Part shown: positions 40,211-44,078 of the stretch, piece after piece
Numbering within the stretch: the stretch's first letter is position 1
Layout of the letters: every line of letters starts with the position of its first letter
DNA from: Carnobacterium sp. 17-4
GTDB taxonomy: Bacteria > Bacillota > Bacilli > Lactobacillales > Carnobacteriaceae
NCBI RefSeq assembly: GCF_000195575.1
Contig: NC_015391.1
Span: forward strand, 922,501 to 986,500
DNA: 64,000 bases
Reading direction: 5' to 3'
The notes under the pieces: model-generated
The model's input: the letters and a program-made list of their open reading frames with translations, nothing else
The model's database searches: none
Told to the model about the DNA's origin: nothing
Position numbers and translations under genes: made by a program

Positions 40211-42559
40211 GTGAAGGGATACGTTCTTTTTCCAGCTATTTCTTCTTTATTGTGTGCTACTGCTATTTTAAACCCTAATTGGTTGAGTATTTTTATATTC
40301 TTGATTTGGTTGATTCGATTGCTGTTTACACGTAGAAAGAAATGGCTCATTTATTCTTTTTTGTTCATGAGTATAACAGTTTTTTTTGTAGGGGTAGAAA
40401 AGTACAACAACCAAACGAGTCTTTCGATGGACACTAAAGATTTTTTGATTGAAATGGATCCCAATCAATTGAAAATCGATGGCGATCAAGTGCAATTTTA
40501 CGGTACAGTTAATCAAGCTGGAGAAACGATAAAGCATTCTGAAAAAATTGTTGTTTTTTTTCGATTGTCTACTAAAGAAGAAAAAGAGTATTGGGAGAAA
40601 CAACAAAAAATAACAGAGTTTGTAGTGACAGGATCTTTGACGAAACCTGAAAAAAATAGGAATTTAAATCAATTTGATTATCAGCGTTATTTGTCTCATA
40701 ACAAAATTCATTGGATTTTAGATGCAACATCAATTAAGGCGCACTCTGGAACTGAGAATAAGGCTTTTTGGGATCTATTTAACTTGAAAAATATCAGACA
40801 AAATATCCTGGTTCATGTTGAACGTAAAACAACAGTTACTGTGTCGAGTTACATTAAAACCTTATTATTCGCAGATACTAGTTCTATTGATGATCAAGTA
40901 ATGAATGGATACAAAGAAATTGGAATCATCCATTTATTGAGTATTTCAGGCTTACATATCCAATTTTTAATAGCTGGGCTGACGTACATCTTATGGAGAA
41001 GCGGGATGACACGTGAGCACACGTATATCCTTTTATTTATTTTTCTTCCTATATACGGAAGTTTGACCGGTTGGGGAACCAGTATTTTTAGAGCTGTTGT
41101 GATGAGTTTGATCAGTCAGACAGGTTTACGGATTCGTAAACCTATTTCCGGCCTGGACGCATGGTCATGGACGTTGATTGTCGGACTTTGGATAGATCCT
41201 TATCAAGTATTCTCTATTGGTTTTCAATTGAGTTATCTACTCAGTTTAGCACTAATTTTATTTTCAACATCGTTGTTTAACCAATCAAAATATAGCATTA
41301 TAAATAACTTATACATCTCTTTTGTTTTAACACTTATTTCTATACCGGTTCTCAGTTTCCATTTTTTTGAGTTTTCGTGGATTGGAATGTTTGCTAATTT
41401 GCTTTTTGTTCCATTATTTACTTGGTTCATTATGCCCTTGATGATTCTATTGTTTTTTAGTTCCTATATTTTTTCGGGAACACTATTTTTTCACTTTCTT
41501 ATAGACTTAGCGGAATGTTCGTTGGGAATGATTGAATGGCTGGTATTAAAAATCAGACTTTTTCCATATGGTACGATTGTTACCGGAAAAGTTCCTTTGA
41601 TGTTATTTATTGTAACGACGATGGTATTAATTACGTTTCTGATAGCATTAGAACAGCAAAAGAAACGGAAACGAGTTCTTATGTTGTTGATAACTGTTTT
41701 TATAGTCTTTATTCAGTATCAAAAATACAGTCCATTTGGAGAAGTTTTGATACTAGATGTAGGCCAGGGAGATGCGACTTTAATTAAAGAGCCTTTTGGA
41801 AGAGGTGTCTACCTAATAGACACGGGCGGAGCACTAGCATTTGAAAAAGAAGAATGGCAAATAAGAAAAAATCAGACAACTGTTTCAAGCCGTGTGTTAA
41901 TCCCGGTGATCAAGTCTCTAGGCGTAACACAATTAGACCAAGTGTTGATTACGCATGGTGACGAGGATCATATGGGTGAATTAATTGAACTAGCTCAAGG
42001 TATCGAAATTAAAGAGCTTGTTTTCCCAATAGGGACAACTAAAAAACAATCATTTTTTGATGCAGCTGAAGCATTAGAAAAAAGTGGTGTGGCTTTACGT
42101 GCAGTTAGCGCTAAACGAGCACGAGAGCAACTTTTTGGACCTTCTTTAGCTGTTTTGTGGCCCTTAGACAATGGTGAAGGAGAAAACAACGATTCGCTTG
42201 TATTGTATGGGAAAATTGGTCAGTTTAATTGGCTTTTCACAGGGGACATAGAAGAGACGGGGGAAGCCGAAGTAACAGCTCTTTACCCCAATCTAAAAGT
42301 GGATATTTTAAAAGTAGCACATCATGGAAGCCAAACGTCAACTAGTGAAAGGTTTATTCAAAAAATTAAGCCAAAAACAGCTTTGATATCTTGTGGGTTA
42401 AACAATCGCTACAATCACCCAAATGAGGATGTGCTAGAACGTTTGGCTTCATTAAATGCAATGGTCTACCGAACAGATCTGCAAGGAAGTTTTAGGTATA
42501 CCTATGCTGATTATTTACACATAGGGGTAGAAAAAGACTTTCAAACGATTTTAAAATAA
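40211..42559 (+). CDS. comEC: ComEC/Rec2 DNA uptake channel
   Basis: A 782-residue membrane protein. N-terminal region with two membrane segments and an OB-like domain (about 70-180), a competence domain with about nine membrane segments (IGIIHLLSISGLHIQFLIAG, GWGTSIFRAVVMSL) and a C-terminal metallo-beta-lactamase-like domain (LDVGQGDATLI, THGDEDHMGEL, AHHGSQTST) thought to degrade the non-transported strand. GTG start immediately after the comEB stop with no clear ribosome site, so translation is probably coupled. Full length and intact. Confidence 0.95.
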   Translation: MKGYVLFPAISSLLCATAILNPNWLSIFIFLIWLIRLLFTRRKKWLIYSFLFMSITVFFVGVEKYNNQTSLSMDTKDFLIEMDPNQLKIDGDQVQFYGTVNQAGETIKHSEKIVVFFRLSTKEEKEYWEKQQKITEFVVTGSLTKPEKNRNLNQFDYQRYLSHNKIHWILDATSIKAHSGTENKAFWDLFNLKNIRQNILVHVERKTTVTVSSYIKTLLFADTSSIDDQVMNGYKEIGIIHLLSISGLHIQFLIAGLTYILWRSGMTREHTYILLFIFLPIYGSLTGWGTSIFRAVVMSLISQTGLRIRKPISGLDAWSWTLIVGLWIDPYQVFSIGFQLSYLLSLALILFSTSLFNQSKYSIINNLYISFVLTLISIPVLSFHFFEFSWIGMFANLLFVPLFTWFIMPLMILLFFSSYIFSGTLFFHFLIDLAECSLGMIEWLVLKIRLFPYGTIVTGKVPLMLFIVTTMVLITFLIALEQQKKRKRVLMLLITVFIVFIQYQKYSPFGEVLILDVGQGDATLIKEPFGRGVYLIDTGGALAFEKEEWQIRKNQTTVSSRVLIPVIKSLGVTQLDQVLITHGDEDHMGELIELAQGIEIKELVFPIGTTKKQSFFDAAEALEKSGVALRAVSAKRAREQLFGPSLAVLWPLDNGEGENNDSLVLYGKIGQFNWLFTGDIEETGEAEVTALYPNLKVDILKVAHHGSQTSTSERFIQKIKPKTALISCGLNNRYNHPNEDVLERLASLNAMVYRTDLQGSFRYTYADYLHIGVEKDFQTILK

Positions 42560-42631: not shown

Positions 42632-43691
42632 GTGAATTTTGTATCAGAATTAGCAAAAATAAAAAATGGCACGATTGCTCCCGTTTATATTGTATTAGGA
42701 ACAGAGTCCTATTTAGCAAGCGTAGCTAGAAAAACACTGTTGGATTCATTGCTTAGTGCAGAAGAACTGGAATTAAACTACGGTGCTTACGATATGGAAG
42801 ATGTTTCGATTGGAACAGCTTTAGAGGATGCAGAATCAATTCCATTTTTTTGGCGATCGCCGTCTCGTTTTTGTAGACAGACCGGTCTTTTTAACGGGAG
42901 ATAAAACAAAGTTAAAGGTAGAACATGATGTGAAATGGTTAGAAAGTTATTTAACTCATCCTTCTGAATCAACGACACTTGTATTCTTTGCCCCTTATGA
43001 AAAATTAGATGAACGGAAAAAAATAACTAAGTTACTAAAAAAAACAGCTACCATAATAGAAGTAAATGCATTATCAGAAAAAGATATGCGAAAATACATT
43101 AAAGATACTATTGCAAATGAAGAGTACCGTTATTCCCCAGAAGCGTTTGAATTATTTATTCAATTAACAGATGCGAAATTATCTGTAGCGATGGGAGAAT
43201 TGCCTAAACTTTTTATTTATGCCCAAGATACTAAATTTATTACACTAGATGCGGTTCAAGAATTAGTGGCTAAGTCGTTAGAACAAAATATTTTTGCGCT
43301 AAATGAATACGTTTTGAAAAAAGACGTAGGACAAGCGCTTAATTTATACCAAGATTTATTACTACAAAAAGAAGACCCTATTAAAATAAATGCGATTATG
43401 ACCTCTCAATTTAGATTACTGATCCAAGTCAAAATTTTAGAAAAGAAAGGCTATCAGCAAGGGGATATTGCTAAACAATTAAAAACGCATCCCTATCGTG
43501 TGAAATTAGCTATTCAACAAATGAGGAAAATTGAGGAGCATTCGCTGATCGAAGCGTATAATGGATTGATTGATGCTGAGTATCGATTGAAGACAGGAAA
43601 AGGCGATAAAGAAATGCAATTTGAATTATTCGTTCTGCAGTATGCGCAAAAAAAGGCAACGAACAGAGACCAATACAAGCGTTTAAAATAA
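42632..43691 (+). CDS. holA: DNA polymerase III delta subunit, single-base frameshift at a T7 run
   Basis: The clamp-loader delta subunit, about 350 residues if read through. The first frame (from 42632, MNFVSELAKIKNGTIAPVYI, ending YDMEDVSIGTALEDAESIPF) stops at 42904. The rest is in the +1 frame: FFGDRRLVFVDRPVFLTGDK onward to 43691, with the delta-family AAA+ and collar domains. The switch falls at 42845-42851, seven T after CCA; with six T the frame IPFFGDRRLVF would be continuous, as in other HolA. HolA is essential in Bacillus, so this is a sequencing error, an RNA-polymerase or ribosome slippage site, or a real mutation. Start GTG/ATG region has GGTGG upstream. Confidence 0.85.
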
Positions 43692-43756: not shown

Positions 43757-43823
43757 TGAATTTGTTGAAACAACTAGAATAGACTATTTTAAGTTGTAAA
43801 TAATTGAAAGTGGGGTGAATCAA

Positions 43824-44078
43824 ATGCCAAACATCGAATCTGCAATCAAACGTGTTCGTACTTCTGAAAAATCAGCTGTACAAAACAACGTTCAAAAAAG
43901 TTCAATGCGTACTGCTATTAAAAAATATGCTCAATCTATTGAAGCAGGTAACGAAAATTCTGAACAATTACTTAAAGAAGCAATCAAAGCAATTGACATG
44001 GCTGCATCTAAAGGATTGATTCATAAAAATAAAGCTAACCGTGACAAATCTCGTTTAACTGCTAAATTAGCTAAATAA
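43824..44078 (+). CDS. rpsT: Ribosomal protein S20
   Basis: An 84-residue highly basic, helical protein of the 30S subunit ([20 protein letters not shown], ending [15 protein letters not shown]). ATG 43824 with GTGGGGTG upstream; a GTG at 43815 overlaps that site. Normal length. Next to holA, as widely conserved in Firmicutes. Own promoter and a strong terminator. Confidence 0.97.

Follow-up and report, generated by a model that had tools for sequence, protein, structure and literature searches.

The deposited genome of Carnobacterium sp. 17-4 raises the question of whether holA, encoding the delta subunit of DNA polymerase III, is truly interrupted at a run of seven T, or whether the interruption belongs to the record. 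If the run is real, replication in this bacterium would depend on slippage or on a delta subunit made in two pieces. We analysed a window, i.e. the whole stretch of 64,000 nucleotides, to which all positions refer unless another contig is named, together with further parts of the genome and those of its relatives. In all likelihood, the split holA is not a real feature, representing a miscounted run rather than a new form of replication control.

The holA locus in the deposited record

The reading frame of holA changes at seven T (42845-42851), the local sequence being ATTCCA, the run itself, and then GGCGATCGC. The features of the locus, all on the forward strand, are as follows.

40211-42559, forward: comEC-like competence gene upstream of holA; open frame, with Pfam Competence and Lactamase_B matches
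42632-42904, forward: first part of holA; delta residues 1-73, then 17 out-of-frame codons leading to a TAA stop
42845-42851, forward: T7 run and site of the frame change; the same codons in relatives are an in-frame Phe-Phe, the clamp-binding motif
42852-43691, forward: second part of holA; 279 delta-matching residues plus stop
43815-44078, forward: rpsT (ribosomal protein S20) downstream of holA; open frame, with a Pfam match from the ATG at 43824

Two open reading frames (ORFs) in different frames are involved, one of 90 amino acids from a GTG start (42632-42904) and one of 287 amino acids (42828-43691), the latter, as delimited mechanically, opening upstream of 42852 at the ATG at 42828. 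Counted from the GTG at 42632, 73 delta residues precede the run and 279 follow it in the other frame. Residues 19-73 of the first ORF correspond to positions 1-55 of PF06144, while the second ORF takes up positions 51-123 of the same family and the whole of PF21694. Similarly, the first part covers positions 1-57 and the second part positions 53-315 of the 316 in the holA profile TIGR01128, with scores of 28.9 and 258.5 bits, respectively (cut-off 80). The Pfam and NCBIfam profiles thus place the join of the halves at positions 51-57, and the two halves together match the delta family over its length, in a record that holds no single continuous reading frame for holA. Judged by these profiles, the two halves are a single delta protein cut at residue 73. 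The original prediction that holA is interrupted at the T7 run is therefore confirmed, the ORFs lying in different frames and consecutively on the family profiles; of the 73 and 280 residues given for the two parts, the first number is exact and the second should read 279.

The neighbouring genes are open, with a deoxycytidylate-deaminase-like gene and comEC upstream and rpsT and uvrB downstream. A Shine-Dalgarno-like AGAGG (42823-42827) directly abuts the ATG at 42828 of the second-frame ORF; this AGAGG-ATG (42823-42830) is also present in G005, the nearest relative, and so is independent of the frame change. A search for an internal promoter serving the second half returned two promoter-like sites, against a mean of 5.9 in shuffled sequence, neither of them just before 42828. 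Repeats around the T7 site amounted to one 10-nt direct repeat and one short palindrome, neither of which is telling.

Relatives, the origin of the T run and the state of holA

Among 18 genomes of the family, holA is split only in Carnobacterium sp. 17-4; each of the other 17 has a single match with no internal stop, and the frame transition is conserved in none of them. A survey of loci led to the same result: both halves were detected in 24 of 27 loci (L002 and L026 seem to come from a single genome, and the first half went undetected by the query in L019, L020 and L021), and the halves are in differing frames only in Carnobacterium sp. 17-4, being in frame in the other 23 of 23. Comparison of the run in relatives, which the original prediction had proposed as a check, thus shows the split to be unique to this genome, as is the single-base length difference in the run. 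Seven related loci (L004, L006, L007, L012, L013, L014 and L018) carry T7 at the same place without loss of frame, as the last base of the Pro codon before the Phe pair is itself a T. Seven T at this site therefore need no correction per se. Such runs are also commonplace, with 93 runs of exactly T7 and 439 of A7 in a sample of 616 ORFs of at least 100 amino acids from this genome, holA included.

The codons at the run specify Phe72-Phe73, the first being conserved without exception and the second almost so across 16 aligned relatives (the Carnobacterium sp. 17-4 sequence not being among them). In a profile alignment this pair corresponds to Leu73-Phe74 of E. coli delta, residues that, according to the cited passage of PMC11139829, insert into the sliding clamp as a hydrophobic plug and are critical to its loading. 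Both Phe codons precede the frame change in the deposited record, such that the hydrophobic clamp-binding pair of domain I is present. The protein offers the best explanation for the presence of a T run, in that the codons of the clamp-binding Phe-Phe readily make a homopolymer in A+T-rich relatives.

Against G005, the 1033-nt alignment of holA contains a single length difference, at the T run, and 62 of the 74 differences among 1023 compared bases are at third positions. Estimates by the NG86 method were dN 0.031 and dS 0.325 for the first 71 codons and dN 0.009 and dS 0.382 for the 270 codons after the run, or dN/dS of about 0.1 and 0.025 for the first and second halves. These ratios indicate that both halves are under purifying selection. 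Pseudogene decay of holA was considered and rejected, there being no sign of it in the dN/dS of either half. No second copy of holA was found in the genome, where the lone further match to TIGR01128 lies below the cut-off and matches dnaX. HolA is tabulated as present in all bacteria in the cited part of one review, which marks it as essential under seven species codes (Bs and Ec are two of these) but not under Sa, Sn, Mg or Mt (PMC3290774).

Breaks in other core genes

We compared 724 kb of the Carnobacterium sp. 17-4 chromosome (about 27%) with the matching parts of G005. Within the first 124 kb, holA is the sole break seen from all three relatives (100 kb having been compared for two of them). 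Outside the window, the same kind of break occurs in other core genes. The gene for topoisomerase IV subunit A, parC (G000:C2 ~1289497-1291735; L122), lies in two frames at an A8 run on the coding strand; topA (G000:C2 ~1300093-1301912; L128/L129) and xerC (G000:C2 ~1298723-1299596) are likewise in two frames, at an A5 and a T5 run, respectively. By family search, each of the three is whole in all five other genomes of the genus. Alignments with G005 of parC, xerC and topA (2470, 913 and 2076 nt) contain one 1-base length difference each, located in an A/T run of 8, 5 and 5 bases, respectively, in the Carnobacterium sp. 17-4 record. Compared with G005, this record has the longer run in holA, parC and xerC but the shorter one in topA. 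The junctions in parC, xerC and topA all fall within 11 kb, and this clustering of three split core genes may reflect a stretch of poor coverage. A further gene at G000:C2 ~830737 (L141), which we take to be divIB/ftsQ-like, changes frame after approximately 53 residues among A-rich runs and is open in G005, the sole relative compared. Additional genes, named by eye, are out of frame relative to G005 near A7 runs: a short regulator-like gene at G000:C2 ~1269715 and a membrane-protein-like gene at ~1085941.

Both topA and parC are generally regarded as indispensable. On the other side, paralogues of the two, scoring below the family cut-offs, occur in all six genomes of the genus. A growing cell is not expected to lack holA, parC and topA together.

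The overall rate of breaks is a different matter. Counting the genes in which a tenth or more of the length is out of frame yields 9 of 513 in Carnobacterium sp. 17-4 and 9 of 515 in the control genome G005, and the split matches in an earlier tblastn count were 9 of 399 and 11 of 408, respectively; both raw lists of out-of-frame genes include probable non-breaks, such as start-site extensions, doubtful ORFs and nearly compensated gaps. Two of the nine cases in Carnobacterium sp. 17-4 were set aside by eye, 69272_69961 as a start-site extension and 43542_44546 as a nearly compensated gap. An excess of breaks over the control genome, which would be expected for sequencing error without defining it, was thus not found. 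Since the raw counts are alike in G005, the break rate does not single out the Carnobacterium sp. 17-4 record, and we do not use it as proof. A run of at least five lies near the first gap in seven of the nine cases in this record versus three of nine in G005, a comparison chosen after seeing the data. G005 itself has affected genes of apparent importance, with a penicillin-binding-protein-like gene (G005:C8 ~489227-491363) split at an A9 run and an aspartokinase-like gene (G005:C8 ~2356882) out of frame near a G run, both named by eye.

Weighing the readings, with known systems compared

We consider the T7 in holA to be very probably a homopolymer length error from sequencing or assembly. The Phe-Phe pair for the sliding clamp, written in TTT codons in an A+T-rich genome, would give rise to a T run; the length of that run would be miscounted in sequencing or assembly, and an apparent frame change in holA would follow. 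The attribution to sequencing rather than to the cell, drawn from the record and the comparisons, is very likely correct. A stronger argument for it than the break rate is the joint damage to delta, topoisomerase IV and topoisomerase I, with which a live cell is not expected. Sequencing error was among the options offered in the original prediction, and it is the one that gains support, from the uniqueness of the split, the purifying selection, the lack of a second copy and the breaks in other core genes. Errors of this kind have precedent: 923 indels of a 454 assembly of C. maltaromaticum LMA 28 were corrected by Illumina reads, as reported in the cited passage of PMC3569318, and 243 discrepancies with the published finished genome of C. 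autoethanogenum, of which more than 90% were in homopolymers, are reported in that of PMC4687164. Moreover, unclustered frame transitions confirmed by BLASTp are, in the wording of a section of PMC3711429, expected to be sequencing errors and not genuine indels. The entry for Carnobacterium sp. 17-4 in PMC5341603 gives a size of 2.63 Mbp, a single plasmid and 25 fCDS; its sequencing method was not found in a literature search.

Were the seven T real, some of the transcripts or ribosomes might slip at the run, producing enough full-length delta, with slippage setting its dosage. The run does sit exactly at the frame change, and a tRNA bound at TTT could shift one base downstream and pair again. 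A 2010 title by Wernegreen et al., reportedly on the maintenance of frameshifts in homopolymers, also counts on this side. According to the cited portion of PMC1088944, some bacteria may slip on runs of fewer than nine, and deletion errors in runs increase with run length in Buchnera (PMC5574713). However, T7 falls short of the usual, though not obligatory, eight or nine A or T: in the passages concerned, a large share of genomes is described as showing selection against slippage at nine A/T, a threshold that varies between genomes (PMC1088944), and transcriptional realignment as often seen at eight or more (PMC3711429). Transcript errors at A/T runs are, moreover, chiefly insertions, 80% of them single-base, whereas rescue of holA would require the net loss of one base or gain of two; deletions beginning in uninterrupted runs numbered three in E. 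coli (<1%) and 15 in Buchnera (21%), and that transcript-error study contains no case of a frame-restoring transcription error (PMC5574713). The frame transition is absent from the 17 other genomes of the family, and the AGAGG at 42823-42827 is shared with G005, whose holA is in frame. No stimulatory RNA structure was found in the 84 nt after the run (z 0.15; 105 of 200 shuffled sequences fold equally well), although some programmed sites have none. Slippage at the holA run would by itself leave the breaks in parC, topA, xerC and the divIB-like gene unexplained. On conservation, downstream folding and published run lengths, we reject slippage or programmed frameshifting as the best reading and consider it very unlikely. 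Neither the suggestion of transcriptional slippage as a new control point for the replisome nor that of a programmed +1 frameshift finds support, given a split confined to one of 18 genomes of the family, the lack of a downstream fold, the in-frame T7 in seven related loci and the similar breaks in other core genes.

Another possibility is a genuine mutation in the sequenced clone or in a fraction of the culture, either temporarily tolerated or hidden by a mixed population, or else a genuine loss of delta. In its favour, indels in homopolymers are common mutations, and the run is present in the record. Against this, no second holA was found, neither half shows decay, and parC and topA are split as well, which is jointly unexpected in a growing cell; we regard such a mutation or loss as highly improbable.

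A broader possibility is that the indels in holA, parC, topA, xerC and the divIB-like gene are all real and tolerated because the RNA polymerase or the ribosome slips unusually readily. If true, this would be genome-wide frameshift rescue in a free-living bacterium, having so far been proposed for endosymbionts with long A/T runs; we hold it to be exceedingly improbable. The idea that holA works as two polypeptides, the second started at the ATG at 42828, where the 287-residue ORF does open in the second frame, has next to no probability, as AGAGG abuts that ATG with zero spacing, the cut lands in the clamp-binding motif of domain I, and AGAGG-ATG is also found in G005, out of frame with delta in a gene that is whole.

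The chief value of the homopolymer-error reading is a warning, in that a genome of two contigs that looks complete has holA, parC, topA and xerC split, and gene lists and pseudogene counts taken from the Carnobacterium sp. 17-4 record may be wrong.

In its protein, the locus resembles the known delta family (TIGR01128, PF06144 and PF21694; 3zh9_B and E. coli delta 1jqj_C), whose profile the halves jointly cover, and the gene order deaminase (comEB-like)-comEC-holA-rpsT is held in common with delta-subunit holA loci; unlike in known delta proteins, the frame in this record is broken at residue 73. As in the reported portions of the C. autoethanogenum (PMC4687164) and LMA 28 (PMC3569318) work, single-base homopolymer differences split conserved genes. 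The errors in those two genomes were shown by further sequencing, whereas the holA case is known from the deposited record. The C. autoethanogenum runs had been called too short in the cases described, in contrast to the present record, where relative to G005 those of holA, parC and xerC are longer and that of topA is shorter. The slippage in T. thermophilus dnaX likewise involves a homopolymer run in a gene of the clamp loader, there one of nine A giving a shorter second product, as described in the cited part of PMC1088944. The run in holA differs from it in consisting of seven T, in splitting the gene in one of 18 genomes of the family, and in lying at the clamp-binding motif of delta.
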